In this document: one piece after another, positions 28,613 to 63,422 of the stretch
Layout of the letters: every line of letters starts with the position of its first letter
Position numbering within the stretch: the stretch's first letter is position 1
From: Myxococcales bacterium
GTDB taxonomy: Bacteria; Myxococcota; UBA727; GCA-2721815
DNA length: 64,000 bases
Assembly: GCA_002721815.1 (NCBI GenBank)
Contig: PBLQ01000016.1
Coordinates: 3,524-67,523 of the forward strand
Direction of reading: 5' to 3'
Program-made: the position numbers and the translations under genes
Notes under the pieces: generated by a model
The model's input: only the letters and a program-made list of their open reading frames with translations
Database searches by the model: none
What the model was told of the DNA's origin: nothing

Positions 28613-30172
28613 TTATTGATTGAGATGGAAGAATGGAATGTACCGTGATCCATTCAAATCATCGTGATCGACCTGTAAGGTCGCCAAAGAGGTGGCTGCA
28701 CTGTGGGTGAATGCCGTGAAGGGTGCATCGCTGGTGCCTGAATTATGAGCTCCGTATTTCCACGTGGATGAGGGCCCTGCGTTGCGAATGACAAACAGAT
28801 AGCTGGTTCCCTGTGTGAGTTGAGCATTCAGGCCCGTACCAAAATAAAACTTGTGATCACCCCCTGTCGTTGTTGAATTGTCGACGGTATAGACATTACT
28901 GCCAGATGCAATTTGCCAAGTAGAGCCCACTTGTTCGAAAACAGCCAATTCTAATTCGAAGTTCTCCGCGCCATTGTCTTGGTCGCCTTGAAGGATGTGT
29001 GCTTCATCGAACAAGCCCGTCGCTGGGGCATCAAACAAAATGAAGAGGGCGTTATTTTTTGTAAGTAAGTAACGATCGGTGACCGCTGCGGGGCCGAAGG
29101 AACGGACATAGGTGGCCTGTTCGAGTGTTGCTGAGCTTGAGCCGCCATTGAGGTGCGGGCATTCAATCACCCAACTGTTGCTGTCAGTGTTGGTGGTGCA
29201 ATTACTACCATTCAAAATGGTTTCCGAGCCAGTGTCACAAGAGACGGTGACACCGTTGTCTGCCGTTTGTAGGCTGCAACCCTGACCATGGGCACCATCA
29301 TCGCCGTTTAACCCATTGGTGCCGGCTTGCCCATTGGTCCCATCTTTTACCACGGCTGAACTGTCGCCGCAGGTAATGCGCAGCCCGTTACCGGTTTCTA
29401 CTGCAGTGCAATCGGAGCCATGTGTGCCATTGTTTCCATTTTGCCCGTTGTTGACGTGGCTTTGGGTTCCGTCTTGGCAGTGGATTTGTACCCCTTCAGG
29501 GGTAGGTATCGCAGCACAGGGGCCGCCGTTCACGCCGTTGTTCCCATTGCGAACGGTAGTGGTTGTCCCGTCTTCGCAAACAATTTCTTGTCCTTCTTCG
29601 GTGCTGCTGAAGCTGCAAGAGGTGCCATTTTGGCCATTGGCCCCCGGTGAACCGTTGTTTCCATTGACGGGAGCGTGGTTCAACGTGACTGTTCCGTTTT
29701 GACCGTTCTCCCCGGGGTTTCCTGGTGTACCATTGACGCCACGACGAATCAGTGTCGATGTGCCGTCTTCACAGAGCAATGAAATGCCACCATCGGTTTC
29801 TACAGTGTGACAGGTGGTGCCATCACTGCCATTTTGCCCTGAATTTCCGTCAACCCCGTTTTGAATCAAGGTGGTGGTGCCATCTTCGCAGATGACTTGA
29901 ATGCCGTTGCTGGTGGGACTGATGCTGCAAGCGGTACCGTCTTGGCCATTTGTACCTGTTTGGCCTTGCTGTCCCATGTCACCAACGCCACCGTCAGTGC
30001 CGTCTTCACCGTGATAACCACGCGCACCCTCGAGTCCCTTCACCCCTCTTGGCCCAGCCGGTCCGGTTTCACCCTCAACACAAGCCAGAGGGCCGCTAAG
30101 CATGACTGCCAGCGCCAAGTTGGGCATCCAAAACATCCTTCTTTGAGTTTTGTTGGTGATTGGCTGCCTCAT
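28613..30172 (-). CDS. Collagen-like repeat lipoprotein A
   Basis: 519 residues; the lipobox is LSGPLAC, near residue 31. About 16 Gly-X-Y triplets (GPRGVKGLEGARG) are followed by seven units in which a disulfide-like Cys pair, about 13 residues apart and ending in CEDGT, separates Gly-X-Y stretches rich in Asn and Asp. The C-terminal 190 residues form a beta-rich domain with GLNAQLTQGTSYLFVIRNAG. It is a paralogue of the gene immediately upstream. Start choice: the ATG at 30172 leaves a positively charged leader; the ATG at 30127 with AGAAGG upstream is an alternative. Likely a surface fibre protein whose trimers form by the Gly-X-Y segments; the ligand is unknown. Confidence 0.8.
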   Translation of the reverse strand: MRQPITNKTQRRMFWMPNLALAVMLSGPLACVEGETGPAGPRGVKGLEGARGYHGEDGTDGGVGDMGQQGQTGTNGQDGTACSISPTSNGIQVICEDGTTTLIQNGVDGNSGQNGSDGTTCHTVETDGGISLLCEDGTSTLIRRGVNGTPGNPGENGQNGTVTLNHAPVNGNNGSPGANGQNGTSCSFSSTEEGQEIVCEDGTTTTVRNGNNGVNGGPCAAIPTPEGVQIHCQDGTQSHVNNGQNGNNGTHGSDCTAVETGNGLRITCGDSSAVVKDGTNGQAGTNGLNGDDGAHGQGCSLQTADNGVTVSCDTGSETILNGSNCTTNTDSNSWVIECPHLNGGSSSATLEQATYVRSFGPAAVTDRYLLTKNNALFILFDAPATGLFDEAHILQGDQDNGAENFELELAVFEQVGSTWQIASGSNVYTVDNSTTTGGDHKFYFGTGLNAQLTQGTSYLFVIRNAGPSSTWKYGAHNSGTSDAPFTAFTHSAATSLATLQVDHDDLNGSRYIPFFHLNQ

Positions 30173-30173
30173 G

Positions 30174-31751
30174 TTATTGGCTCACCCGGTACCATGGCTT
30201 ATGCGGGTTGCCTTGATCGTCATCTAGGACGAGCAGGGTTTCTTCGGTATAAGTGTTTAAGTCATTCAGGGCGCGTTTGTAAGACAGGCGTGCCCCGCCA
30301 CTGCCTTGGCCTACGACGTTCGCGTAATAGCTGGCATAGGGCCAATCAGAAGTGCCTGCATTTCGAATGACAAAGTAATACCTGGTATTTTTTTGCAGTT
30401 GTGCGTTGAGGCCGCTTCCTGAAAAACGTGAAAATGCGTCGGTGGTGCTGGTATCTACCACTTGCACATTGCTACCGGGCACGAGGGTCAGATCGGCATA
30501 GTCATTGGACTCTCCAGCCCATTGAAAAAGGGCCACTTGAAGATTCACGTCGGATTCAGCGCGTTGGATAATGGAGAACAGATCGTACAGCCCGGTCGAC
30601 GGCGAGTAGAACTTAGAGATTAAGGCTTGGCCTGCTGCCAGGGAATCACTGGTATTGTTCACCATGGCCATGCCATAGGGTTCGAAGCTGGAGAACCCTG
30701 CCACTGACGCCGTGGTCGCTGAATCACCTTCTCCGCACGCAATGGATATGCCACCGCCCACTTGATTGACGGTACAGCTCGACCCATGGTTCACCGTTTC
30801 GGTTGTTGCGCCACAGGTGATGCTCACCCCATCGACCACTGAGGTGATTTGACAGTCATCGCCATTGGTGCCGGGGACCCCGTTGGTACCAGGCGCACCA
30901 TCGGTGCCGTCTAACCCATCACGAATAAAGTTGGAGGTGCCATCGGTACAGGAGACAATGGCGCCGCCATCGGTTTCTTCGGTGCTGCATGAGGTCCCGT
31001 TTTCACCATCGAGTCCATGACTGCCATGATGGATGGTGTTTTCGGTGCCATCTGAGCAGTTGATATGCGCGCCGCCGTCGAATGAAGTTGTAGAGCACGA
31101 TGTGCCGTCTGTCCCGTCAGCGCCATGGGTAATCAGACTGGTGGTGCTGTCGGTGCATAGAATGCGAGCCCCTCCGTCCGTTTCTTCGGTGGTGCAGGAG
31201 CTGCCGTTGGTGCCATCGGTCCCATCGGTGCCATCAGCGCCGTGGGTAATGAAATTGCTGGTGCCATCGGTGCACAGGATATGAATACCGCCGTCGGCGC
31301 TTTCAGAGCTGCAAGAACTGCCGTTGCTGCCATTGGTCCCGTTGGTGCCATCAACGCCATCTTGACCGTGTCGCACGATGGTCGAGGTGCCATCGGTACA
31401 TTGGATAACCACGCCCGCGTCTGTTTCATGGGTGCTGCATGAGGTCCCATTTTGCCCGTTGCTGCCATTGGCACCGTTGCTCCCATTGCTTAAAAATACG
31501 GTGGTGCCATTTTCACATGTCACATAAACCCCCCCGTCCGCACCGTAGGTGGAACAAGAGTCGCCCGGCGCGCCGGTTTCTCCCCGAGGACCCTCAGGGC
31601 CTCTAGGGCCACGCAGACCGTTGCTTCCGCTGTTGCCACTGACACCTTGTTCGCCTTGAAAGCCGCGCAGGCCCCGGGGGCCCCTTTCGCCTTGAGGCCC
31701 TTCAATACAACCGGTCACCAATACAAGCGCGATTAAAAAATCCTTCCGCAT
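30174..31751 (-). CDS. Collagen-like repeat lipoprotein B
   Basis: 525 residues. The lipobox (LVTGC, Cys at residue 15) is followed by 15 strict Gly-X-Y triplets with charged and Pro residues (GPQGERGPRGLRGFQG). Then come eight units of a Cys, about 13 residues with DGG, a second Cys, DGT and a short Gly-Asp/Asn-rich linker. The C-terminal domain (about residues 355-525) shares GLNAQLxxxTxYxFVIRNAG with its neighbour. The ribosome site GAGGGAGG lies six bases before the ATG. The next gene begins one base after its stop, so the two are an operon, and probably a recent duplication that diverged in repeat number. Confidence 0.83.
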   Translation of the reverse strand: MRKDFLIALVLVTGCIEGPQGERGPRGLRGFQGEQGVSGNSGSNGLRGPRGPEGPRGETGAPGDSCSTYGADGGVYVTCENGTTVFLSNGSNGANGSNGQNGTSCSTHETDAGVVIQCTDGTSTIVRHGQDGVDGTNGTNGSNGSSCSSESADGGIHILCTDGTSNFITHGADGTDGTDGTNGSSCTTEETDGGARILCTDSTTSLITHGADGTDGTSCSTTSFDGGAHINCSDGTENTIHHGSHGLDGENGTSCSTEETDGGAIVSCTDGTSNFIRDGLDGTDGAPGTNGVPGTNGDDCQITSVVDGVSITCGATTETVNHGSSCTVNQVGGGISIACGEGDSATTASVAGFSSFEPYGMAMVNNTSDSLAAGQALISKFYSPSTGLYDLFSIIQRAESDVNLQVALFQWAGESNDYADLTLVPGSNVQVVDTSTTDAFSRFSGSGLNAQLQKNTRYYFVIRNAGTSDWPYASYYANVVGQGSGGARLSYKRALNDLNTYTEETLLVLDDDQGNPHKPWYRVSQ

Positions 31752-46879: not shown

Positions 46880-47440
46880 TCAGGAATAAAAGGGCTCCAA
46901 ACCATCTAATGCCTTGTTGTTCGTATGACCTTCGGCCTGTAAAGCCCTGTCTGCATTTCTGAGAGGCGAGATTGCAATGGGCGCGCCTGTTCGCGTGGAC
47001 AGGGCGTTTTTGTCCTTCGCTGCAATGGGGCACCCTGATCGGCTTTGCCGCCAGTCTTTGGAGGTGGGTGGGTTTTCGTTCAGCACACATTGCCATTGTT
47101 CAACCCGGTATAACGGAAAGGTTGGGGCGGTCAGTTCGATGCGCCGGTCTGTCAGGGTGCACAATACTTTTTGTTCTTTCATTTGGGCCAAGACCATCTG
47201 GGCCTTGGGCTCTTTGAGGCGTTGTTCCCACCAGGTGCGAGGTTCGCCGTAGATGACCATCCCGTGGTTTGGGTCTTGTTGCCCCACTGTGAGGGCGTCT
47301 GTGGTCGGTTTGACGCCTTGCGAGCGAATTTCGATCCACCATTCTTTTCGAAGCCGTTTGCGTACATTTCGGCAGGTGAGTACCAAGAGGTACCCCACGC
47401 TGAAGAGCCAGTACAGTACGAGAAATGCGATCGTATCCAC
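46880..47440 (-). CDS. GEPRTWW-family paralogue A (single transmembrane helix)
   Basis: 186 residues. The proposed GTG start at 47440 has no clear ribosome site. One N-terminal helix (residues 5-24) is followed by Arg/Lys, then the family domain: EWWIEI, VIYGEPRTWWEQRLKEP, ENPPTSKDW and GAPIAIS. The DSGF element of the other copies is degenerate here (SRSGCP). It is the last of five co-directional paralogues and the most divergent. There is no known domain name for the core. The function is unknown. Confidence 0.75.
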   Translation of the reverse strand: MDTIAFLVLYWLFSVGYLLVLTCRNVRKRLRKEWWIEIRSQGVKPTTDALTVGQQDPNHGMVIYGEPRTWWEQRLKEPKAQMVLAQMKEQKVLCTLTDRRIELTAPTFPLYRVEQWQCVLNENPPTSKDWRQSRSGCPIAAKDKNALSTRTGAPIAISPLRNADRALQAEGHTNNKALDGLEPFYS

Positions 47441-47524
47441 AGGAGAAACCTAACAAGTCCCTCAGGGGCCGCAACTCAACCCTCATTCCTGGCTAAAAAA
47501 AACATCACCGACTTTTGGGCCGAT

Positions 47525-48049
47525 TTATGGCTCGCTCTTTGTTATAGGTGGGAGGTGAAAAGGATCGAAACCCTCGGCTTCTCTTTTTAAATTTTTCTTT
47601 TCATGGATTAAAACCGGCACGGCAATGGGCGAGCCCGATTGTGAGGCAGATGCGATTTTGTCTTTGGCGGAGACAGAAAAATCAAAACCACTGTCTTCCC
47701 AGTCTCGGCGGGTCGGTGGTGTGCCCCTGAGGGTGTACTGCCATTGTCTAACCCGTGGGTACAACGCTTCGGGGCAATTTTCGATGGCGCTGCTGGTCAA
47801 AGCGCAAGACGCCTCATGGCGCCAAAGTTCGGTCATCACATAGCGCGCTTGGGGCTCTTTAATTTTTTTATCCCACCACGTTCGGGGCTCGCCATAAATT
47901 AGTAATGCCCGGTCTAGTTTGTGATCTCCCACCTGAATGTCATCAGGGGTGGGGGTGAAATTCTCGGGTCCGATGTGGATCCACCATTCAACTTTTTTGG
48001 GATTGAACACCATTTGCAGTTTTAACTTAAAAGTTTTCCAAAACTTCAT
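47525..48049 (-). CDS. GEPRTWW-family paralogue B (no transmembrane module)
   Basis: 174 residues: a short basic, possibly amphipathic N-terminus (MKFWKTFKLKLQM), then the family domain with EWWIHI, IYGEPRTWWDKKIKEPQAR, ALTSSAIENC, PPTRRDWEDSGFDFS and GSPIAVP. It is the shortest intact member and shows what is shared by all five: the soluble core of about 130 residues. The 84-base gap to the next gene has no recognisable hairpin. No function is known. Confidence 0.78.
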   Translation of the reverse strand: MKFWKTFKLKLQMVFNPKKVEWWIHIGPENFTPTPDDIQVGDHKLDRALLIYGEPRTWWDKKIKEPQARYVMTELWRHEASCALTSSAIENCPEALYPRVRQWQYTLRGTPPTRRDWEDSGFDFSVSAKDKIASASQSGSPIAVPVLIHEKKNLKREAEGFDPFHLPPITKSEP

Positions 48050-48122
48050 TCAATGATTCTAAACCGGTTTGTCGTTGCAGACAATTTCTCGGAGACTTTA
48101 ATGTTGCTTTTGGTGCCGTGGC

Positions 48123-48961
48123 CTAAGGCTCTTTTTCATCCACGAGAGAGGGAATGGCAATGGGTGAGCCGGGGTGTGCCGAAGCTTGGGCTGTTTCATC
48201 GGCGGAAGTCGTGAATCTGTATCCGCTGTCTTTCCAATCTTGCAGTGAGGGTGGATGACCCTTCAAATGCTCATGCCATTCTTTGACGGCCGATTCTATT
48301 TGGGGGTCACAATTCATTTTTTGGGACGTCAGACTAAGTGTGAGGCGACGCTCTTGGAGCAAGCGTAAGACGGCGATGGATTCAGGATCGCGGAGCCGGT
48401 ATTCCCACCATGTGCGAGGCTCCCCCCAGATGAAGAGGGTGCGATCAATACTTTTTGGCCCACATGAATATCGCGAATGCTCCCCGTGTTGGGGACATAA
48501 TCGCCTTCGAGGGTGATGTCGAGCCACCATTCTTTACCGAGGTTGAGTTGAAAATACCTCAAGGTGATGTTGGCATTGAGAAACCATCCGAAAAAAAGAA
48601 GAACCGGTGAGATGTAAAAAAAAACGCTTTTTAGATCGTTGTAATTTTCATGCCCCACATACACCCAAATAAAAATTACCATTCCAAAGTGCAAGGCGAA
48701 AACAGTGCCTTGGAAGGCAAGGTCCCAAAACCCTTTGGCCTTTTCCAGGTTATCGCCCAAAACCAAAGTCACCGCGCCAATAAAAAACATGAAGGGCGAG
48801 GTGAGCAGGATGAGTTTGGGGAAGTCGTACATATCAAAATAGAAGAGCCCTAAAAGACCACTCATTAGAACAGAGAATAAACCCCAAAGTATATAAAACC
48901 GGATTGGGTTCACACCACAAAAGTGGGCAATGGCACTGAAGGTTTTGCTTCGATGGATCAT
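48123..48961 (-). pseudogene. GEPRTWW-family paralogue C, four-helix type, disrupted by a one-base frameshift
   Basis: The first frame (from 48961) encodes the four-helix membrane module and the beginning of the core (EWWLDITLEG, RDIHVGQ). The second frame, ending at 48123, encodes the remainder (IDRTLFIWGEPRTWWEYRLRDPES to GSPIAIP). Aligned with the neighbour at 48958-49806, where the junction reads RKSIDRTLF, the two join perfectly if one A is added to a run of five (T at 48452-48456 on the plus strand). Everything else is intact and 70 percent or more identical by eye, so the lesion is either very recent, phase-variable, or a sequencing error in a homopolymer. It overlaps the upstream gene by ATGA. 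Confidence 0.8.
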
Positions 48962-49806
48962 CGTTGGTTGTCTTTTGTTTCTTCACCGAGCGACGGGACG
49001 GCGATGGGCGACCCCGCCCGTGATGATGCTTGGATCGTTTCGTGGGCGGATGTCGTGAATCTGTATCCGCTGTCTTTCCAGTCTTGCAGCGTAGGCGGAA
49101 AACGCTCCAAATGCTGACGCCATTCTTTGGCGGCCGATTCTATTTGGGGGTCACAACTGATATTATTGAGGGTAGCACTGAGGCCGAGGCGCTGCTTTTT
49201 TAGTATGCGTAAGATGGCGATGGATTCAGGATCACGAAGTCGGTATTCCCACCATTTGCGGGGTTCTCCCCAGATGAACAGGGTGCGATCAATGCTTTTT
49301 CTGTTCACGTGGATATCGCGACTGCTCCCCGTGCTGGGCGCATATTTGCCTTCGAGTGTAATGTTGATCCACCATGCTTTTTGGAGAATCCATTGCAAGC
49401 GATGTAAAGCGTTCCTGGCATTGAGACACCAGCTTAGAAAAAACAAGCATGGCGCGATATAAAACAGATTTCCTTTTTGTCCATTCCAGTATTCATTCCC
49501 CACATAAAACCAAATGTAAAACAGGGTCGAAATGTGAGCGAAGAAAATGATGAATTGAACGAAGTTATGCCCAATACTCAATAAAGGTTCGAGCCTTTTG
49601 TCATCACCCAAAAACCAAGTGAACATCAAAAACAATAAAGGGGAAAAGAGCAATAGGATTCTGTGGAAAAATCCGAGTACAAAATAAAAGCGCCCCAAAA
49701 AGACACTCATTAGAAAAGAGAACAAGCCCCACATAATATAGAATCGGACTGGCCGATCGCCACAGAAGAAGGCGATGATACTTAAGGTTTTGGTTCTGAG
49801 GATCAT
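48958..49806 (-). CDS. GEPRTWW-family paralogue D (four-helix membrane module)
   Basis: 282 residues. Four hydrophobic helices lie at residues about 20-135, separated by short loops (FYIMWGLFSFLMSVFLGRFYF; ILLLFSPLLFLMFTWFLG; FIIFFAHISTLFYIWFYVG; LFYIAPCLFFLSWCLNA). A basic residue cluster and the core domain follow: AWWINITLEG, FIWGEPRKWWEYRLRDPES (Thr to Lys in the signature), FPPTLQDWKDSGYRFTTS and GSPIAVP. It overlaps both flanking genes by ATGA, which implies coupled translation of the three membrane-type paralogues. No function is known. Confidence 0.8.
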   Translation of the reverse strand: MILRTKTLSIIAFFCGDRPVRFYIMWGLFSFLMSVFLGRFYFVLGFFHRILLLFSPLLFLMFTWFLGDDKRLEPLLSIGHNFVQFIIFFAHISTLFYIWFYVGNEYWNGQKGNLFYIAPCLFFLSWCLNARNALHRLQWILQKAWWINITLEGKYAPSTGSSRDIHVNRKSIDRTLFIWGEPRKWWEYRLRDPESIAILRILKKQRLGLSATLNNISCDPQIESAAKEWRQHLERFPPTLQDWKDSGYRFTTSAHETIQASSRAGSPIAVPSLGEETKDNQR

Positions 49807-50621
49807 GGCGTGTTGTCTTCTGTTTCTTCAACGATCGCGGAAATGGCGACAGGTGCGCCTGGAGGCGAAGTCCCGTGGAGGTTGTCCTTATCCGAAAAAT
49901 CAAACCCACTGTCTTTCCAGTCTTGTGGGGTGGGTGGGTTCTCGTTGAGCATGTTGCGCCATCGTTCGGCTTGTTCTCTATGGGGGGCCGCGCAGTTTTC
50001 AATTTGGCTTCCCGTTATGGCGCAGACATCGCCCTGGCTTCGCAGGCGCGCCAAAAAGGCCCGGGCTTGAGGTTCTTTGATGCGTTGCTCCCACCAAGTG
50101 CGAGGTTCTCCATAAATTTGTAAGAAGTCATCAATGTTTTTGTTTCCCACCTGCATGTCATCGAGGGTGACAACGATACCTTCAAGTTTTATATCGATCC
50201 ACCATTCTTGATGAATGGTGCGTTGCAGGTTTTGATAAACCAGTAGTCCGTTGAACATCCAAGCGATACCAAAGAATATAGGCAACAGGTAAAACCCGTA
50301 AGGGGAACTTAAATCTAGCGGATTTAACAATTGTGGATGTATCGTTAGAACTCTATGAATGGTTAAAAAGGGGAGTACCAACAAAAAGCAGTACAGGCAC
50401 GCCGCAAGGGTATTTGTTTTCTTCGACTTGGCGACATAGACAACGAAAAACATCAATGGGCTGGCCGTTAAAACCACTTTAGTGATGGGGAACAGCAGGA
50501 AATAGAGGTAGCCGACTGATAAGCTTGCGACCACAAAAAAGACACACCACAACAGAAAAAAACGACCGGGGAATACCTCTATGGTGTTATAAATCTTAAT
50601 GAGCCAATTTTTTTGTTGCAT
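49803..50621 (-). CDS. GEPRTWW-family paralogue E (four-helix membrane module)
   Basis: 272 residues, first of the array in transcription order. Four helices (residues about 20-130), then EWWIDIKLEG, QIYGEPRTWWEQRIKEPQAR, ITGSQIENC, NENPPTPQDWKDSGFDFS and GAPVAIS. The core is closest to copies A and B, while the membrane module resembles C and D, so duplication was followed by module gain or loss. By topology the core should be cytoplasmic if the N-terminus is inside. Stretches such as VGNKNIDDFLQIYGEP recall a pattern I remember from uncharacterised myxobacterial proteins; I could not verify this. Confidence 0.8.
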   Translation of the reverse strand: MQQKNWLIKIYNTIEVFPGRFFLLWCVFFVVASLSVGYLYFLLFPITKVVLTASPLMFFVVYVAKSKKTNTLAACLYCFLLVLPFLTIHRVLTIHPQLLNPLDLSSPYGFYLLPIFFGIAWMFNGLLVYQNLQRTIHQEWWIDIKLEGIVVTLDDMQVGNKNIDDFLQIYGEPRTWWEQRIKEPQARAFLARLRSQGDVCAITGSQIENCAAPHREQAERWRNMLNENPPTPQDWKDSGFDFSDKDNLHGTSPPGAPVAISAIVEETEDNTP

Positions 50622-50644: not shown

Positions 50645-51193
50645 TCAGACTTCCAAGTTTTGAAGGCCTGTTCGCGGTGCAGAGCGTTGGATGTAAAGGG
50701 CCAAAAATCCTAAGATGGCCGACCACGCTACAGCGATAAAAACAAAGGAAGTGCTTTCAGGGCTACCGAGGCTAACCACTTGTAATGTTTGTCCCCCGGA
50801 ATAGACCATGGGCCCCACCAAAGCGCCGGCCACAAAACCACGCCAAGGTTGGGCCACCAACCAATCCATGGAGTACCGCAAGGTGGCGCCAAAGCCGGCC
50901 CACAAACCCCACATCCACAAAGGAATGGGCAAGCCGAATTCACCGGGCGGTTGAAATTGCAAAGCGCCGCCAATGACCAACAAGCTGTCGCCCAAGCCGC
51001 CCACCACGGTGGCCGTGATCACCAAGAGCAATTCACGGTTGAAGTTGTCGCGGGTCATGAACAAATGAAACAGGGTGAAAGCGAACATGATCGCAGCCGC
51101 CCAAAGGGGATGTTGCCATTTCACGGCCAGCACACAACCCCACCAAGCCAGCTGGTGGGCGAGGATTTGTATTTTTGAATAGTGGCGGTTCAT
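50645..51193 (-). CDS. DUF2878-family membrane protein
   Basis: 182 residues from the ATG at 51193; GGGTGAAAG lies upstream. Five or six helices with TRDNFNRELLLVITATVVGGLGDSLLV and an Asp in the third segment, then the Trp-rich PIPLWMWGLWAGFGATLRYSMDWL. This pattern is that of the DUF2878 family, membrane proteins of unknown role, and the length is typical. It is 24 bases upstream of the GEPRTWW array and on the same strand, so it may be the first gene of that transcript. Confidence 0.7.
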   Translation of the reverse strand: MNRHYSKIQILAHQLAWWGCVLAVKWQHPLWAAAIMFAFTLFHLFMTRDNFNRELLLVITATVVGGLGDSLLVIGGALQFQPPGEFGLPIPLWMWGLWAGFGATLRYSMDWLVAQPWRGFVAGALVGPMVYSGGQTLQVVSLGSPESTSFVFIAVAWSAILGFLALYIQRSAPRTGLQNLEV

Positions 51194-51370
51194 GTCTTTC
51201 ACCCCTGCAGCTTAGCACGTCGCAGTCGCTTATCATTGGCAATTGTGACGTTTGTTATGGGATCATTTTCCATCATCCAGGAATGCGGCGTTTGCCGTTG
51301 GGTTTCGGTGCTTTTCCTAACCCATTTAAAAACAAGGCTTTTGCTAAAGAAACGTGTGGAACAGGCGCGC

Positions 51371-51392: not shown

Positions 51393-51486
51393 GGCTTGAG
51401 TCCAGCTTGAAGAGGATCGTAGATTCTCGCCGCTTAGTTAAAAGCCAACTTTGAAGACCAGAAACATACCTGGGAGGAGTATCAAC

Positions 51487-54400
51487 ATGGCACAAGTGAA
51501 CAACACAACATCCACAACAACCAAATCAACCTCGAATTACCGTGATGACAGTGCCAAGGCCGCCATCGCTCAGGCCGAACGTCAATTGAGCAAGCCCAAT
51601 GCGCAGCTCAGTGGTGATGACATGATCAAGATGATCAAAAGCGCCACCCAAGATGCCGACAATCAGGCGGCGGGCCAAGAGCACAAAGACCTCTCTAAAT
51701 TTGTCGAGGCCAACAAAAGCAAGATGAGCCCCGAGGCGTTGGCTGCATGGAATGTCTACGACGATACGGCTGCCAAGATGACCGCCAAAGGCAAAACGGG
51801 AATCCCCAAAAATGAATACAAAGCCATGCTGGGTAAAATGGAAAAAGCATCGGCCTTCGCGGCGAAAAACAAAGCCGACAAATTTGATAAAAAATTCGCC
51901 GACAAAAGCTCTGGCGAAGCGGTACAGGCTCTCGATAAATGTCCCAAACCCATCAGTGGGGCCGACTTGGAAAAAGCCATTATCAAAGGCACTCAGGACC
52001 TCGACGGCCAAGCGGCAGGCCGTGAATACAAAGATCTCAAAAATTACGTGAGCCAAAACTGGAAAAACATGTCACCGGACGCGAAAGCCAAATGGCGGGT
52101 ATACGAAAACAAAGCGCAATCCTGTCAAGCACGGGGCATGTCTGGGATTCCCAGCAACGAATACAAGCAAATGGTTAAAGACATGCAAAAAGCGGGCTAC
52201 AGTGACGCTGGCGCAGGTCGTGCCATCGAAGCCCAACGGGCCAGGGGCAACCCCATTGAAGGTGATGACATGATGAAACTGATTCATGGGGCCACCCGAG
52301 ACGCAGATAACCAAGCGGCAGGTGCCGAATATTCAGATTTGCGCAAATACGTCAAAGAGAATTGGAAATCCATGACGCCAGACGCCAAAGAAAAATGGAA
52401 AGTCTACGAAAAAACCGTCAAGTCTTGCAACGCCAAAGGCATGACCGGAATCCCATCTAAAATGTACGATAAGATGATCGACAAGATGAAGCTCACCGGT
52501 TACCAAGATTCGGGTTCTGGAAGGGCCATCGAAGACCTCAAAGGAAAAACCCCGCCCATCAGTGGCGATGACTTGCAAAATGCCATCGTGGCCGGCACCA
52601 AGGATTGGGACGGACAAGCTGCGGGCAAAGAGTACAACGACTTTAAAAACTATGTCAGTGAGAACTGGAACAAGTTGTCCCCTGACGCGAAAGCCAAATG
52701 GCGGGTGTACGAAAATAAAGTACGTTCTTGCCGGGCGCGCGGCATGGCTGGAATCCCTGGTGGCGAATACAAACAGATGATCAACGATATGAACAAAGCG
52801 GGTTATCAAGACGCTGGTGCTGGGGCTGCCTTAGAGAAACTCAACGGGGCACCCAAGCCTGTGTCTGGAGCTGCCATGGAGCAGGCCATTATCGATGGCA
52901 CGAAAGATTTCGACAATCAGGCGGCGGGCAAAGAATTTGCTGATATTGCCAAGTGGGCCATGAGCAACTGGAACAACTTGTCCCCTGAGGCCAAGGCCAA
53001 GTTTAAAACCTACGCGAAGCATGCCATTGCCAGCAAGTTGCAAGGGCAAACGGGCATGTCACCCGCGCAGTATTCGAACATGATTCGTGACATGAAAACC
53101 ACGGGCTATAACGACCGCGGGGCAGGGGCAGCCATCAATGAGTTGGACAAGTGTCCCAAGCCCATCAGCGGTGATGATTTGGCCAAAGCCATTTATAACG
53201 GCACCAAAGATGCTGACAACCAAGCCGCCGGTGCAGAGTTCCAAGACCTCAACAAATACGTGAAATCGAATTGGAACCAAATGAGTCCTGACGCCAAGGC
53301 CAAATGGATGGTCTACGAGTCTAAGGCCCGCCAGTGTCAGGCCAAAGGGCAAACCGGTATTCCCAGTGGTGAATACAAAGAGATGATCGACACCATGAAC
53401 AAGACCAAAGCCTATCAAGATGCCAGTACCGGCAAAGCGCTCAACGCGCTTGAAAAGGCCCCAAAACCCATTTCGGGTGAAGCGATGCAGCAAGCGATCA
53501 TCAACGGCACCAAAGATCTCGACGGTCAAGCCGCTGGTAAAGAGTTTGCGGACATTCAAAAGTTTGCCAAAGAGAATTGGGCAAACATGAGTCCTGATGC
53601 GCGCGCCAAATACAAGGTCTATGCGGAGTGTGCTGCCAAACATCAAGCCGCGGGCCATACGGGCATTCCAATGAGTGATTATGCGAACATGGTGAAGGAC
53701 ATGAGTGCGGCTAAGGGGTACCAAGATGCTGGTGCAGGAAAGGCCATCGAAAACCTGCAGAAAAAACCACAGCCCATCAGTGGCGCCGATATGACCCAAG
53801 CGATCATCGCCGGCACCAAAGATGGAGACAGCCAAGCTGCGGGCAAAGAGTATGCCGATTTTAAGAAATTCGTTTCTGAAAATTGGAACAACATGTCGCC
53901 CGATGCCAAAGCCGCGTGGCGGGTTTACGAGAGCAAGGCCCAATCCTGCCAGGCGCAAGGCAAAACCGGCATTCCATCCAATGAGTACAAGCAAATGGTC
54001 TCCGATATGAAAGCCTCTGGCTACCAAGACAAGGGAGCGGGTGCGGCCATCGAGAAGTTGGACAGCCAGCCCCGACCGGTTTCTGGGGCTGCGATGCAAC
54101 AGGCCATTATTGCGGGGACCAAAGATGGTGATGCTCAGGCTGCGGGCAAGGAGTATGCGGACTTCAAGAAGTACGTGAAAGAAAACTGGAGTGAAATGAG
54201 TCCACAGGCCAAGGCCAAATGGCGGGGGTACGATAAAATGGCGTCGAAGCACCAAGCAGCTGGCAACACTGGAATTCCCAGCAGTGATTACCAGAAGATG
54301 GTGAAAGACATGCGTCGTGCTGGCTACTACGATAAGAGCGCGGCGCGGGCCTTGGAAAAACTGGAAAGCGGGCCCAAGCCCATCACGGGTGAGGCCATGG

Positions 54401-54984
54401 CCAATGCCATTCACAAAGGCACCAAAGATGCCGACAGCAAGGCGGCCAGTGCAGAGTTCGCGGACTTCAAGAACTTTGCCAAGGCCAATTGGCATCAAAT
54501 GACGCCCGAGGCCAAGGCGAAATTCCGTACTTACGAGCGTTACGCGGAATCAGCCCAGCAAAGAGGTCATACTGGAATTCCGTCTCATGATTACAACAAC
54601 ATGATCAATGAGATGAACAGTGCGGGGTATAAAGATGCCAGTTCGGGTTTGGCCTGTGAATTCCTGAATTCCATGCCGGGCATGATCGATGCCAACACTT
54701 TTAGTGCGGGCATGGCTTTGGGTACGGCCGATGCAGATGGCAGTGCCTTCGGAGCGGAATACGAAGATATGGCCAAGTGGGTGGACCAAAACAGCTACCG
54801 AATGACCCCAGGGGCGCTCGCGGCTTGGCAGGTGTATGAAAAGACCGCCTTGGCTGCGCGGGACCAAGGTCAAATGGGTTGTCCTCCAAATCAGTACGAC
54901 CAAATGTTTAGTCAAATGTTCATGGCGGGCACTTCCAACGATTTGGATGCGGCCATGCAGTTGGCACAGTTTTTACGGCCATAG
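51487..54984 (+). CDS. Repeat protein of eleven ~101-residue units, unknown function
   Basis: 1165 residues from the ATG at 51487 (GGAGG seven bases upstream; the frame opens at 51451). There is no signal peptide or membrane segment. A Ser/Thr/Asn-rich N-terminus of about 35 residues leads to tandem units, each following KPISGDDM, GTKDxDxQAAGKEYxD, YVxENW, MSPDAKAKWxVYE, SCQAxGxTGIPSxEYKQM and GYQDxGAG. Each unit is rich in Lys, Ala and Gln and looks helical. Single Cys (SCQA) and Trp recur at the same place in most units; Cys in alternate positions is missing in a few. The last unit is degenerate. Likely a cytoplasmic or non-classically exported structural protein. I know no described family. 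Confidence 0.85.
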   Translation: MAQVNNTTSTTTKSTSNYRDDSAKAAIAQAERQLSKPNAQLSGDDMIKMIKSATQDADNQAAGQEHKDLSKFVEANKSKMSPEALAAWNVYDDTAAKMTAKGKTGIPKNEYKAMLGKMEKASAFAAKNKADKFDKKFADKSSGEAVQALDKCPKPISGADLEKAIIKGTQDLDGQAAGREYKDLKNYVSQNWKNMSPDAKAKWRVYENKAQSCQARGMSGIPSNEYKQMVKDMQKAGYSDAGAGRAIEAQRARGNPIEGDDMMKLIHGATRDADNQAAGAEYSDLRKYVKENWKSMTPDAKEKWKVYEKTVKSCNAKGMTGIPSKMYDKMIDKMKLTGYQDSGSGRAIEDLKGKTPPISGDDLQNAIVAGTKDWDGQAAGKEYNDFKNYVSENWNKLSPDAKAKWRVYENKVRSCRARGMAGIPGGEYKQMINDMNKAGYQDAGAGAALEKLNGAPKPVSGAAMEQAIIDGTKDFDNQAAGKEFADIAKWAMSNWNNLSPEAKAKFKTYAKHAIASKLQGQTGMSPAQYSNMIRDMKTTGYNDRGAGAAINELDKCPKPISGDDLAKAIYNGTKDADNQAAGAEFQDLNKYVKSNWNQMSPDAKAKWMVYESKARQCQAKGQTGIPSGEYKEMIDTMNKTKAYQDASTGKALNALEKAPKPISGEAMQQAIINGTKDLDGQAAGKEFADIQKFAKENWANMSPDARAKYKVYAECAAKHQAAGHTGIPMSDYANMVKDMSAAKGYQDAGAGKAIENLQKKPQPISGADMTQAIIAGTKDGDSQAAGKEYADFKKFVSENWNNMSPDAKAAWRVYESKAQSCQAQGKTGIPSNEYKQMVSDMKASGYQDKGAGAAIEKLDSQPRPVSGAAMQQAIIAGTKDGDAQAAGKEYADFKKYVKENWSEMSPQAKAKWRGYDKMASKHQAAGNTGIPSSDYQKMVKDMRRAGYYDKSAARALEKLESGPKPITGEAMANAIHKGTKDADSKAASAEFADFKNFAKANWHQMTPEAKAKFRTYERYAESAQQRGHTGIPSHDYNNMINEMNSAGYKDASSGLACEFLNSMPGMIDANTFSAGMALGTADADGSAFGAEYEDMAKWVDQNSYRMTPGALAAWQVYEKTALAARDQGQMGCPPNQYDQMFSQMFMAGTSNDLDAAMQLAQFLRP
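51601..54951 (+). repeat. Tandem array of about eleven 101-residue (303 bp) repeats
   Basis: The marker TGIP or its variants occurs eleven times. The first marker (51799) and second (52144) are 345 bases apart because of an insertion of 14 residues; the next are exactly 303 bases apart (52447, 52750). Sequence identity between units is high at protein level but synonymous sites differ, so the array is old and selected at protein level. Two units differ by one or two residues in spacing (KAYQD and KGYQD variants). Confidence 0.85.
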
Positions 54985-58367: not shown

Positions 58368-59708
58368 TCATCGAGCATTATCCTCAACCAAAGGCAGCAC
58401 CCAAAACCTTGGTACCCAGGAGTCAGGTGAGATCGTTGTGAGGTCAATTTGGGGGTCGATGCCGCGTTGAGATTTCCTGCCATTTAGGGAAACAAACGAA
58501 TCGGCAAAAACCGAAACATTTTGATGCCCTTTATTTTCGAATTCATTTTTTAGATGATGGGCGTATTCCAAAATCATATCCCATTGGGTGCAAAGCATTT
58601 TGTATTGAAAGGGCGCAAGTCGTTTCCGTGGATAGATGCGAATTACTGTGTCTGTTTCACTGGTTTTGATTCTGTATTCAATTTTGCCTGTTTTTTCGAT
58701 CAGCATCACGCGCCAAGAGAACCGAAAACCATCTTCTGTCCAATTCACGGGCCCCGGATAACATAGAAACCTGAGGGGAAAGAGTATTTGAAATGCGAGC
58801 CAAAAGAGCAAAAATAACCTCAAAGTTTTCCAAGGTACCGCAGGTTTAGAGCACTTATTTAAAACCAAAGGCAATTGATGTTTGAAATGGTGTCGTGGCC
58901 ATGTAGGCGCGAAGAACAAGGTTGCAGAGAGTATCATTAACCAGGAAAAAATTCCGATTGGGAATAACGCCCAGATACTTACATGAAAAATCACGATTCC
59001 GGTATATGCCCAGCGACGTGTTTTGGGCCACCAAAGAAATATCCAAATCGTTAAATCAAATGCAGCGCCCGCCCAGCTCATGAAAAATGCGGCCTGGGAG
59101 GTATGTAGAAGTGAGCCCACGATGGGCCAGTGTGAATAGTTTTGCAACCAAAGATGAAGTGGTTGCGCGTACAAAAGCCAGTCGCTGTTAAGTTTGGCAA
59201 ATCCAGCATAAAAATATACCAATGCAATTTGTAGGCGTAAAAAGAGATAGACCCAATGAGGAATGGGCACAATTTCTTGCTTTTTAGATATCTTGATGAG
59301 GCTGTGAGACCGATGCGAAGGGAGCAAGAACAGGAGAAAAGCAATGAGGCTGACCAGGTAATAGTGGTTTAAATACATGGCTTTTTCCATCAGCTCCACC
59401 CAGGTGAAACAAACAAAAAATACCAAGGCGCATGTTTTGGTTTTGATCCCCATGGATAAAAAAAAGGCTGACAAACCCATGATAATGAAAATCACGTAAA
59501 GCCAAGTGGGCGCCAAAACCGTGATGAATCGAAAACCAAAATAGGTGAAATGGTAATCGGGCTTTATAAGCAAGTCATGCACCCAACCGTAAGCGACAAA
59601 CCGTATGGTTCCCAAAAACATGAGCAGACCGAAAGCAGACCTAAAAAAAATAAAGGCCGTCGGATCTTGGGGGCGCATGAGCCAAGCTTGAGTCGCTCTA
59701 GTCGCCAT
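58368..59708 (-). CDS. HTTM-domain membrane protein (vitamin K-dependent gamma-carboxylase-like)
   Basis: 446 residues with about eight helices. The segments IFFRSAFGLLMFLGTIRFV, LMEKAMYLNHYYLVSLIAFLLFLLPSH and ALVYFYAGFAKLNSDWL have the pattern of HTTM proteins, distant relatives of the vertebrate gamma-carboxylase membrane domain. The C-terminal ~120 residues form a soluble domain (FRFSWRVMLIEKTGKIEYRI). Its start overlaps the imelysin gene by 11 bases, so it is the last gene of the imelysin/di-haem operon. In many bacteria this position is held by a different protein (DUF1513); HTTM members do occur too. The reaction is unknown. Confidence 0.8.
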   Translation of the reverse strand: MATRATQAWLMRPQDPTAFIFFRSAFGLLMFLGTIRFVAYGWVHDLLIKPDYHFTYFGFRFITVLAPTWLYVIFIIMGLSAFFLSMGIKTKTCALVFFVCFTWVELMEKAMYLNHYYLVSLIAFLLFLLPSHRSHSLIKISKKQEIVPIPHWVYLFLRLQIALVYFYAGFAKLNSDWLLYAQPLHLWLQNYSHWPIVGSLLHTSQAAFFMSWAGAAFDLTIWIFLWWPKTRRWAYTGIVIFHVSIWALFPIGIFSWLMILSATLFFAPTWPRHHFKHQLPLVLNKCSKPAVPWKTLRLFLLFWLAFQILFPLRFLCYPGPVNWTEDGFRFSWRVMLIEKTGKIEYRIKTSETDTVIRIYPRKRLAPFQYKMLCTQWDMILEYAHHLKNEFENKGHQNVSVFADSFVSLNGRKSQRGIDPQIDLTTISPDSWVPRFWVLPLVEDNAR

Positions 59709-60804
59709 CAGCGTCGTTAAATGATAAGGTTAAAGCGAGGGTGCTCATAAAATCGACCTGCACCAAGGTTTGTAGCTCGCCAAAATTGTCGATCACTTTT
59801 CTCACCGAATCTGGATTTTCGAGAACCGCCTCAGATAATGGCTGGTCAATATCATCGAGACTTTGCATCGTTTTGTTTACTTGGTTTCTGAATGAAGCGA
59901 TCAGATCGGTTCTCTCCATCATGCGTGGGTGGGACACGAGGCCTTGGCGCTCGTCTGTGGCCTCGAAGAGTTCGGAAATCATGCTTAAATTATTTCTGAT
60001 ATCTTCAATGGCATTTTGGCTGAATCGGGATTCTAGGTTGTCTGGTTGTGGACTGCCATTTGACTCATTACCCAAAGGACGTCCGAGTTTGTCTCTTTGA
60101 ATGTTTTCAAATGTGAACCACATGCGGTTGACGATTTCGGCGAAGCTTTCTTTGCTGTTCGCGTACATGCCCTGTGCTGTTTCAGGATCTGTAAGTTCGT
60201 TGAGAAAGCTGCCTTCCCCGGTAGACCATCGTTCGGCGAGTCCTTGCGCTGAGAGTGATAAATCTTCTCCAATGGCCAAAAGTATTTCGCAGCGCCTGGG
60301 ATTACTGACGGTTTCAGACAGTAACGTATCTGGGCTTGCAAAAAGAAACCATTCAAGAGCTGGAAGCCCTCTTTTGGTGGCACCGCCATTGGTAATGAGC
60401 GATGTGGAAATTTCTTTCGTTCCGTTTAGGAGTTCAAGAATGTCTTCTTCGCGGGCAGGCCACGTATCAATGGCAGGGCCGTAACGCCCTGGAAATTCTT
60501 TGTGAGGCCCGAAAGCAAACACCTCTAGCCGTTTGTACGCTGCGCGTGTGTCTCGCCAAGTGTTTTGAGATGCTTCTAAATTCGCAAGGTCGATTGCAGT
60601 ACAAAAAGATTCAGTCGCAACGAGCAACTGTTGTGCTCGGTCTGCAAAATCCTGAAAACCGGGTACGATAAGATGTTGCGCCCACGACTTAATAATGCCC
60701 TGGCGAACATCTTGAACATCTTCAAGTTCGCAATGAGAAAATAACGAGATGCAAAGCAATGGCATCGCAATGACGCTTAGTTTCATTACTTGTTGACGGT
60801 GCAT
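59698..60804 (-). CDS. Imelysin-family lipoprotein (M75 type), second copy
   Basis: 368 residues from the ATG at 60804, which shares a base with the di-haem gene stop (TAATG); a start at 60786 is the alternative. The leader ends in LFSHC. The imelysin signature appears as KRGLPALEWFLF (about residue 160), the variant of GxHxxE found in the short EfeO-like members. YKRLEVFAFGPHKEFPGRYGPAIDTWP resembles the second helix bundle. Imelysins are periplasmic, helical, often iron-regulated and linked to iron transport; they are no longer considered peptidases. Confidence 0.85.
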   Translation of the reverse strand: MHRQQVMKLSVIAMPLLCISLFSHCELEDVQDVRQGIIKSWAQHLIVPGFQDFADRAQQLLVATESFCTAIDLANLEASQNTWRDTRAAYKRLEVFAFGPHKEFPGRYGPAIDTWPAREEDILELLNGTKEISTSLITNGGATKRGLPALEWFLFASPDTLLSETVSNPRRCEILLAIGEDLSLSAQGLAERWSTGEGSFLNELTDPETAQGMYANSKESFAEIVNRMWFTFENIQRDKLGRPLGNESNGSPQPDNLESRFSQNAIEDIRNNLSMISELFEATDERQGLVSHPRMMERTDLIASFRNQVNKTMQSLDDIDQPLSEAVLENPDSVRKVIDNFGELQTLVQVDFMSTLALTLSFNDADGD

Positions 60805-62213
60805 TAAAGAGACTCCAAGAACCGAATAAGGTAATCCCGGTCCTCTTTGGGCATGGCTTTGAAGGCATCTCTGGATTCGGCGGCCTCGCCTCCGTGCCAT
60901 AAAATAGCCTCTTCAAAACCACGGGCGCGCCCATCGTGGAGTAAGCGATGGTGATGATTCACCACTGGTATTAGCCCGAGCCCCCATAAGGGTGGGGTTC
61001 GCCATTCTTGCCCGTTGGCTAAGTAGTCAGGGCGGTTATCTGCAAGGCCTTCTCCCATATCGTGTAAAAGGAGATCGGTATATGGCCAAATCAGTTGCTC
61101 GGTTAACTCCTCAAGGTCATGTTCGCCCGTCCGGTGACTGGGCGTATGGCAACTCGTACATTTTGCGTCATGAAAAAGGGTTTTGCCGATCAATATTTCT
61201 TCAGTATCCCACGCGCGCCGCATGGGAACCGCCACAAGGCTGTTGTAGACCACAACCTTGTGGAATTCTTCTTCTGCGATGTCAGGTGTTCCTCCCACGG
61301 TCGCATTGAGGCAGTCTTCTTGAGCCTCAAAACAGTTCTCGTCAGGAAAAACTGGGTTTGTAATTCCCAAGTCCCCATGAAAAGCGCTTGCGACTTGTTG
61401 CCTTAAAGTGGGTTGATTGGCTTTATGGCCAAAACGTCCCAGTGCTAATTCTTGTTGGTCTTCATCCCAAACGTAGTTCGCTTTGCCACTGATCCCATCA
61501 TTGTTTTCATCGTTCGGATCCGCCAAATGGAGAATATCTGTTTCACGGATTGCTTCTAAAAGACCTAAGCCAATCATTTGCGTTGCAATACGAGGCGATA
61601 TTTTTAGGTCTTCGGCCAATGGGCCGTAAGCAGGGGCAGTGATGATGTATGTGGGCTTGACAAGTTCGTATGGCGTTCCATCGTCGTAAGTTCCTTCGAT
61701 GGTTTCGATGCTTATCTGAGGGGTTGCTTCAGGTGCAATATCTGGAATCGCTTGAGGTTGAAGTTGGGTTCCGTATGCGGGATCGCCCATGGGTCCCCCA
61801 TACGTATCTTCTTCTCCGACGCTTAACCTCAGGAGGAGACCTAAAAAGGGCTCTTCTGCGGTTTCTGGCGGGGTTCCCCGGCCATCTCTGGGGTGGCAAG
61901 CCGAACAGGCGCGTGCATTAAAAAAAGGCCCCAGCCCATCCCGTTTATCGGTGGTTGCTGGGGCTTCTACCCAAGGCTGGTTGAAAAAGCTGTTGCCGGT
62001 GAAGAACATGGGTGAATGTTCTGTGGTGATATTTTCAGCCGGCCTGATAAAGGCATTGACGCCCAATAAAAGCGTGTTGGTTGTTTCACCCCCTGGAAGC
62101 CATTCTCCCGTTTCAACGGGGAGGGTCGACCGGTTTTCTCCACATCCGAGAGCACCATTCAGAAGCAAGAGAAACGAGAAAGCCGAGGCTAAAAGAGGAT
62201 GAACAACCAACAC
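60804..62213 (-). CDS. Di-haem oxidoreductase (DUF1111 family), putative lipoprotein
   Basis: 469 residues. The GTG at 62213 has AAAGGA eight bases upstream; the leader ends near GALGC. Two haem motifs, CSACH (about residue 103) and CTSCH (about residue 354), in the contexts GPFFNARACSACHPRDGRG and LFHDAKCTSCHTPSH, are those of the thiol-oxidoreductase/di-haem DUF1111 family. The C-terminal HHHRLLHDGRARGFEEAILWHGGEA is the conserved metal/haem-proximal stretch of these proteins. It sits between two imelysins, the usual neighbours. Confidence 0.9.
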   Translation of the reverse strand: MLVVHPLLASAFSFLLLLNGALGCGENRSTLPVETGEWLPGGETTNTLLLGVNAFIRPAENITTEHSPMFFTGNSFFNQPWVEAPATTDKRDGLGPFFNARACSACHPRDGRGTPPETAEEPFLGLLLRLSVGEEDTYGGPMGDPAYGTQLQPQAIPDIAPEATPQISIETIEGTYDDGTPYELVKPTYIITAPAYGPLAEDLKISPRIATQMIGLGLLEAIRETDILHLADPNDENNDGISGKANYVWDEDQQELALGRFGHKANQPTLRQQVASAFHGDLGITNPVFPDENCFEAQEDCLNATVGGTPDIAEEEFHKVVVYNSLVAVPMRRAWDTEEILIGKTLFHDAKCTSCHTPSHRTGEHDLEELTEQLIWPYTDLLLHDMGEGLADNRPDYLANGQEWRTPPLWGLGLIPVVNHHHRLLHDGRARGFEEAILWHGGEAAESRDAFKAMPKEDRDYLIRFLESL

Positions 62214-62246
62214 GCAAAGTCCTTTACCAATGCATGTTTAGATGCA

Positions 62247-63422
62247 TTACTCTCTTGGAGGAATGGTTAATTCTAACAATTTGAATGCGTCTTGCAATTC
62301 GGTTTCCAAGTCCAAAAGAGCGGTAATGGTCGCTTGAACACGAGCATTGCCTTCAGTGTTACCTTCTGCGATTTCCTGGTCAAAAGGAGCTTGCAGCGCT
62401 TTTGCGGCGTCCAAAGCGGCCGTGAGTTTGCCGTCAATACTGGTTGCAAGAGCGGCGTCTGCTTCATTAATGACATCGTAAATTCCGGTGCCTTCGATCG
62501 TAGAGCCATCGAGCTTGGTATAGGAGCCTTTCCACACGTTCATCACACCTTGGACGTCTTGAACCATGTCTCGATGGGTATTGTCACTGAAGCATGAGTG
62601 TTCGTCTTCTTGGCTCTTGTTATCAAGAGCGGGTTGGAGGCGTTCGCTGCCTGTTTCGAATCCGGCGAGCATGATCATGCCGGACATGACGCGTCGCAGA
62701 CCTTCATTGGGCTCCGCTGCCAAGAATTCGGCGCGATAGTTATCGGTCCCTGCACTGTCCCATGCATCGACCAAACCCTGGAGGTGACCCACCAGCATGT
62801 CTGACGCCACACCAAGGTATAGCCCTCTACGATCTTGGTTGGCATGTGTGCCGCCTTCACCCGTCACATAATCCGTATAAGCGCGGTCGCCAGGTCCTGT
62901 GTCGCTGGTGTCTTGGCCCCATAAGAGGAATTCAATGGCGTGGTAGCCTGTGGCAATGTTGGCGTCTCCATCTTTTTCGTTGAGAGATTCAAGGTTGGCT
63001 GCTGTGATTTCCACCGCAGTGTCATTCACAATACCGCCTTCATTAAAAGTACCATCCGTATTTAAGACGTAGTCAATGTAGTTCTCGTCCAATGGCCAAG
63101 CATTGATCAGCCCTTCGGGCCCATCTTCTGCATTATCGATAGGACCATCATAAAAACGATATACTTCGGTTTGAAGATAAGGTTCGCGAGACGCTTTCCA
63201 AGCGTCTTGAGCTGCAGTCAGGCCGGCTGCATCAGGGCTGGCAACAAAGTCATCGATTGCTTTGTCCATGTCTTGTGCTGCTGTCAGTGAGTCTGCATAG
63301 CTTGCTGAGACAATATCTGCATAATTTGAAAGCGCATCAGATGTAGTGGATGAGCACCCACCTAATAAAGGTAAACCCACTACAAGGGCTGTAAAAATAC
63401 GCGGGGTGTGTAATGAATGCAT
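62247..63422 (-). CDS. Imelysin-family lipoprotein, first copy
   Basis: 391 residues, lipobox LLGGC (Cys at 23). The hallmark GxHxxE is present as GYHAIEFLLWG (about residue 159), and LQTEVYRFYDGPID and INAWPLDENYIDY mark the first bundle. It is the longer imelysin type (like IrpA/ICMP), expected in the periplasm or at the outer membrane and often under Fur control. GAGGA lies seven bases before the ATG. Three downstream genes follow closely; the operon probably starts here, close after the inverted repeat at 63461. Confidence 0.9.
   Translation of the reverse strand: MHSLHTPRIFTALVVGLPLLGGCSSTTSDALSNYADIVSASYADSLTAAQDMDKAIDDFVASPDAAGLTAAQDAWKASREPYLQTEVYRFYDGPIDNAEDGPEGLINAWPLDENYIDYVLNTDGTFNEGGIVNDTAVEITAANLESLNEKDGDANIATGYHAIEFLLWGQDTSDTGPGDRAYTDYVTGEGGTHANQDRRGLYLGVASDMLVGHLQGLVDAWDSAGTDNYRAEFLAAEPNEGLRRVMSGMIMLAGFETGSERLQPALDNKSQEDEHSCFSDNTHRDMVQDVQGVMNVWKGSYTKLDGSTIEGTGIYDVINEADAALATSIDGKLTAALDAAKALQAPFDQEIAEGNTEGNARVQATITALLDLETELQDAFKLLELTIPPRE

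Follow-up and report, generated by a model that had tools for sequence, protein, structure and literature searches.

The window, a 64,000-nucleotide stretch of DNA from a Myxococcales bacterium, contains on the minus strand at 46880-50621 five co-directional paralogous genes, numbered P1 to P5 in the order of transcription (Table 1), an arrangement that agrees with the original prediction. With P2 as the query, the other four paralogues are recovered with E-values from 9e-17 to 7e-52, and the matches of P2 are confined to the array, with none elsewhere in the 4.6 Mb genome. All five genes encode a common core of about 110-135 residues, in which a WW near the start is followed by GEPR[TK]WW, KEP or RDP, PP[TS]xxDW and G[SA]P[IV]A[IV]; the core alignment thus bears out the motifs originally listed (with GEPRxWW and PPT-DW as the middle signatures). 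W, P and G make up most of the columns that are invariant in P1-P5 (I-G-E-P-R-x-W-W, P, T, W, L, P-P, D-W, S and G-x-P-x-A), and the invariant polar residues are E172, R174, T203 and D234 in the numbering of P1. Pairwise identity of the cores is 30-45%, the exception being P2/P3 with 72%. The C-terminal tail [DE]G[FL][DE]PF[HY] is common to P4 and P5 and is missing in P1-P3.

Table 1. Coordinates of the array genes, the adjoining membrane protein gene and a promoter-like site (positions in the window).
Feature	Position	Strand	Description
P1	49803..50621	-	272 aa; four TM helices (~21-39, 43-61, 71-89, 110-128) and predicted cytoplasmic core
P2	48958..49806	-	282 aa; four-TM module and core; ATGA overlap with P1
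P3	48123..48961	-	four-TM module and core; one-base frameshift at ~48455-48458; ATGA overlap with P2
P4	47525..48049	-	174 aa; core, short basic N-terminus, no TM; C-terminal EGFDPFH
P5	46880..47440	-	186 aa; GTG start; single TM (~3-21), then basic RNVRKRLRK, core, C-terminal DGLEPFY
DUF2878 membrane protein	50645..51202	-	PF11086, E 6.6e-29; 23 nt upstream of P1
Promoter-like TTGTCT-17-TAGAAT	48056..48084	-	just before P4; 1 site in the region against 4.7 expected by chance

Of the several ATGA overlaps described for the array, those at P1/P2 (49803-49806) and P2/P3 (48958-48961) are present, whereas the other two of the four junctions are gaps of 73 nt (P3-P4) and 84 nt (P4-P5). Because the overlap exists at only two of the four junctions, the fixed stoichiometry that had been read from it does not follow for the whole set, and with P3 broken and P4 and P5 spaced apart, a complex of fixed stoichiometry is not required. 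The DUF2878 gene is probably the first gene of a transcript shared with the array. The promoter-like site before P4 is no evidence of function, given that fewer such sites are found than chance expects. The DUF2878 protein is a membrane protein, as are most products of the adjoining array, but P1-P5 do not match PF11086 in the Pfam scan, and the other DUF2878-carrying genomes of the phylum lack genes of the P family. In the relatives examined, nothing resembling the array was seen in the short stretches read on either side of DUF2878.

P3, which had been counted as an intact gene, is split in the assembly into an ORF at 48329-48961 (210 aa) and a second ORF at 48123-48530. The frame is lost at GTGGGCCAAAAAGTATT, and the core resumes in the -1 frame, which continues to the end of the gene. 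A programmed -1 frameshift is unlikely: folding of the region downstream is no better than that of shuffled sequences (z -0.41), and CCAAAAAG at the frameshift is not a canonical slippery heptamer. P3 is either a recent pseudogene, disrupted by a recent mutation, or the product of an assembly error. An in-frame run of nine T at 48600-48640 (minus strand), in the TM part of P3, is a possible slippage site, and the A5 run at the frameshift is another.

In every pair of paralogues, divergence is highest at third codon positions. Together with dN/dS of ~0.26 in the core (dN 0.17, dS 0.68) and ~0.38 in the TM part of the P2/P3 pair, this indicates that the array genes code for proteins and are under constraint; in all other pairs dS is saturated, and these values have no quantitative reading. 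Both parts of P3 have dN<dS relative to P2, and P1, P2, P4 and P5 have open, constrained reading frames. The P2/P3 divergence shows purifying, not diversifying, selection overall. Identity between these two genes is a mosaic, ranging from 38 to 92% in 50-bp blocks, with 82-92% over most of the core (one block within it has 56%) and 38-74% elsewhere, which makes the core the best-conserved portion of the pair and not the most variable one. Such a mosaic would fit either gene conversion or strong constraint on the core.

Hydropathy profiles reveal four TM segments each for P1 and the first P3 ORF, a single one in P5, and neither a TM nor a signal-like segment in P4. The TM segments of P2 are less sharply separated, with the last one below the threshold used; the membrane module of P2 aligns with those of P1 and P3 along its whole length. 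The predicted set of three four-helix copies, one single-helix copy and one without a helix accordingly agrees with hydropathy, apart from the disrupted state of P3, and local amplification with a change of the membrane module is upheld by the paralogy and by the presence of four, one or no TM segments. In P1-P3, basic residues occupy the N-terminus, loop 2 and the stretch behind the last TM segment; in P5 they directly follow the single TM segment. Under the positive-inside rule, this distribution makes a cytoplasmic core likely in every anchored copy, a prediction that is consistent over two kinds of anchor; it weakens the case for envelope sensing and argues against an envelope-facing sensor domain. 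The possibility that the single TM segment of P5 is a retained TM4 was rejected: without the WW tail, the alignment score is 23, which is reached by 13 of 72 unrelated TM controls, and an earlier, higher z came largely from the shared EWW. The score against TM1 is slightly higher (29-30, reached by one of the 72 controls) and is not conclusive.

AlphaFold models built from the five sequences only have mean pLDDT of 53 (P4) and 60 (P1). Moderate confidence is limited to the helix - hairpin - helix - helix stretch of the core, in blocks mostly with pLDDT 70-87, and the tail, which includes the invariant G[SA]P[IV]A[IV], has pLDDT of only 28-47. This segment is probably disordered in the protein, and the conservation of a motif within it suggests a short linear motif. 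The C-terminal GSPIAIPSL resembles loading peptides of the GSLxIGSL type in encapsulin cargo; a role as encapsulin cargo was rejected, there being no PF04454 shell gene in the genome (assembly 98% complete). A Foldseek search of PDB and BFVD with these models gave no match with E below 0.8. Because the models are too weak, the absence of a fold match is uninformative, and the fold comparison suggested with the original prediction neither names nor excludes a fold.

The statement that the core is not a recognizable one holds as far as the tools reach, with neither a family nor a fold match found. For P1-P5, no Pfam family scored above its curated cut-off (best E 0.04), the best NCBIfam match (E 0.27) is likewise below cut-off, PHROGs and PADLOC yielded only noise-level matches, no credible match was found among PDB sequences, and nothing was found in Rfam. 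No relative of the array family was detected in the 57 nearest genomes, nor with core, full-length and TM-module profiles in 195 genomes of the phylum from outside the window's own family; four genomes gave marginal profile matches with E of about 0.005, which are at noise level. Two pattern scans over contigs of 84,980 species, which would miss distant relatives without the motifs, retrieved no relative, and there was no match in IMG/VR, plasmids or phages. The string GEPRTWW was not found in the literature searched. The original prediction referred to tandem as against scattered copies in related genomes; none of those searched has a copy, whether alone or in tandem. The family is thus likely to be restricted to its own lineage, the genomes searched all being from outside the family to which the window belongs. 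Lineage-specific tandem families of small membrane proteins are a general phenomenon, and the array resembles them in its head-to-tail paralogues at one locus, the lack of homologues outside the lineage and the variable anchors; it differs in that the sequence of its core is in no library searched.

The neighbours of the array encode a 1177-aa repeat protein, a SulP permease, a GIY-YIG protein, a GH-like lipoprotein, a Cu monooxygenase-like protein, collagen-like lipoproteins, SPFH/NfeD proteins, imelysins and a gamma-carboxylase-like protein. The 1177-aa protein (51451-54984, plus strand, divergent from the array) consists of about a dozen repeats of ~90 residues with the consensus DNQAAGxEYxDLxKYVxxNWxxMSPDAKAKWxVYE...TGIPxxEY. 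The Pfam HMG-box passes the whole-protein cut-off for it, but no single stretch does, and there is no credible family assignment; it is the only gene of this type in the genome. A gene cluster at 58368-63422 (minus strand) codes for a pair of imelysins (PF09375), for a di-haem oxidoreductase (DHOR) and for a gamma-carboxylase-like protein of the HTTM/vitamin K-dependent type, and two adjoining lipoprotein-like genes with collagen triple-helix repeats are located at 28613-31751 (minus strand).

A Pfam scan of the neighbouring proteins recognized neither toxin nor secretion nor defence genes, and an immunity role is therefore without contextual support; an immunity array for polymorphic toxins in particular gains none, as neither a cognate toxin nor a secretion gene was recognized among these neighbours, although a toxin of an unrecognized type could still be among them. 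The broader proposal is that the array encodes membrane-anchored proteins for recognition, phage exclusion or immunity, which became diverse in response to varied attackers. Divergent copies in tandem, anchoring in the membrane, the orphan status of the family and the mosaic identity of P2 and P3, such as recombination would give, are all compatible with this scenario, as is a weak local PADLOC match of P5 (residues 71-122, E 0.0084) to PtuB, the HNH component of Septu (PDLC00322). However, the other four paralogues do not match PtuB, the stretch in P5 contains no His and no His/Asn nuclease motif for an HNH site, and no PtuA-like ATPase is encoded in the array or adjacent to it, the neighbours being the genes for DUF2878, the repeat protein and the GH-like lipoprotein; identity with PtuB was accordingly rejected. 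Moreover, conservation between P2 and P3 is highest in the core, and the family is absent from the phages, plasmids and IMG/VR sequences searched. A defence array appears unlikely on this evidence, and the recognition, immunity or envelope-sensing diversity originally suggested is not supported, given a core that is predicted to be cytoplasmic, these neighbours and purifying selection overall.

The array could also be the decaying remnant of a once larger family that is losing its function, with P3 frameshifted in the absence of a programmed-frameshift signal and with P4 and P5 shortened, lacking the four-TM module. The constraint that is apparent in both parts of P3 and in the four open frames, as well as the conserved tail that P4 and P5 have of their own, runs counter to decay, which we consider improbable. 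Alternatively, the core might be an unrecognized, membrane-tethered catalytic domain of a small enzyme family that perhaps acts together with the adjoining DUF2878 protein on lipid or envelope substrates. With the invariant E, R, T and D, an enzymatic role is possible, but no enzyme family or fold was matched (the structure models being weak), and the predominance of W, P and G among the invariant columns, with few candidate catalytic residues, would suit binding better than catalysis; this alternative seems quite unlikely.

The best explanation, offered tentatively, is that P1-P5 constitute a lineage-restricted family of membrane-docked cytoplasmic adaptors that diversified by tandem duplication accompanied by anchor changes. 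Under the adaptor scenario, an orphan family would have expanded by tandem duplication beside the gene for the DUF2878 membrane protein, each product combining one small cytoplasmic domain (WW ... GEPRxWW ... PPTxxDW) with a flexible tail that carries G[SA]P[IV]A[IV]. The proteins would dock at the inner face of the cytoplasmic membrane through four helices (P1-P3) or one helix (P5), and P4 would be soluble or peripheral. The copies would most likely serve as adaptor or scaffold subunits related by paralogy, which may belong to one hetero-oligomer; the core and the tail motif would bind common protein partners. That the relatives examined were not seen to share the DUF2878 neighbourhood speaks against this reading. 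A more far-reaching version, which we regard as rather doubtful, is that GEPRxWW/PPTxxDW marks a previously undescribed domain with a fold of its own, belonging to a membrane-docked hetero-oligomeric system that tandem duplication, the swapping of anchors and gene conversion shaped within a single isolated lineage.

At present, this is one more lineage-restricted orphan family, of the kind that is common in sparsely sampled phyla. The array adds a domain that is under constraint and unclassified and that occurs in several membrane settings at one locus, and if the fold turns out to be new, this natural series, in which one core is combined with four, one or zero anchors, would be a handy system for dissecting what the domain binds.
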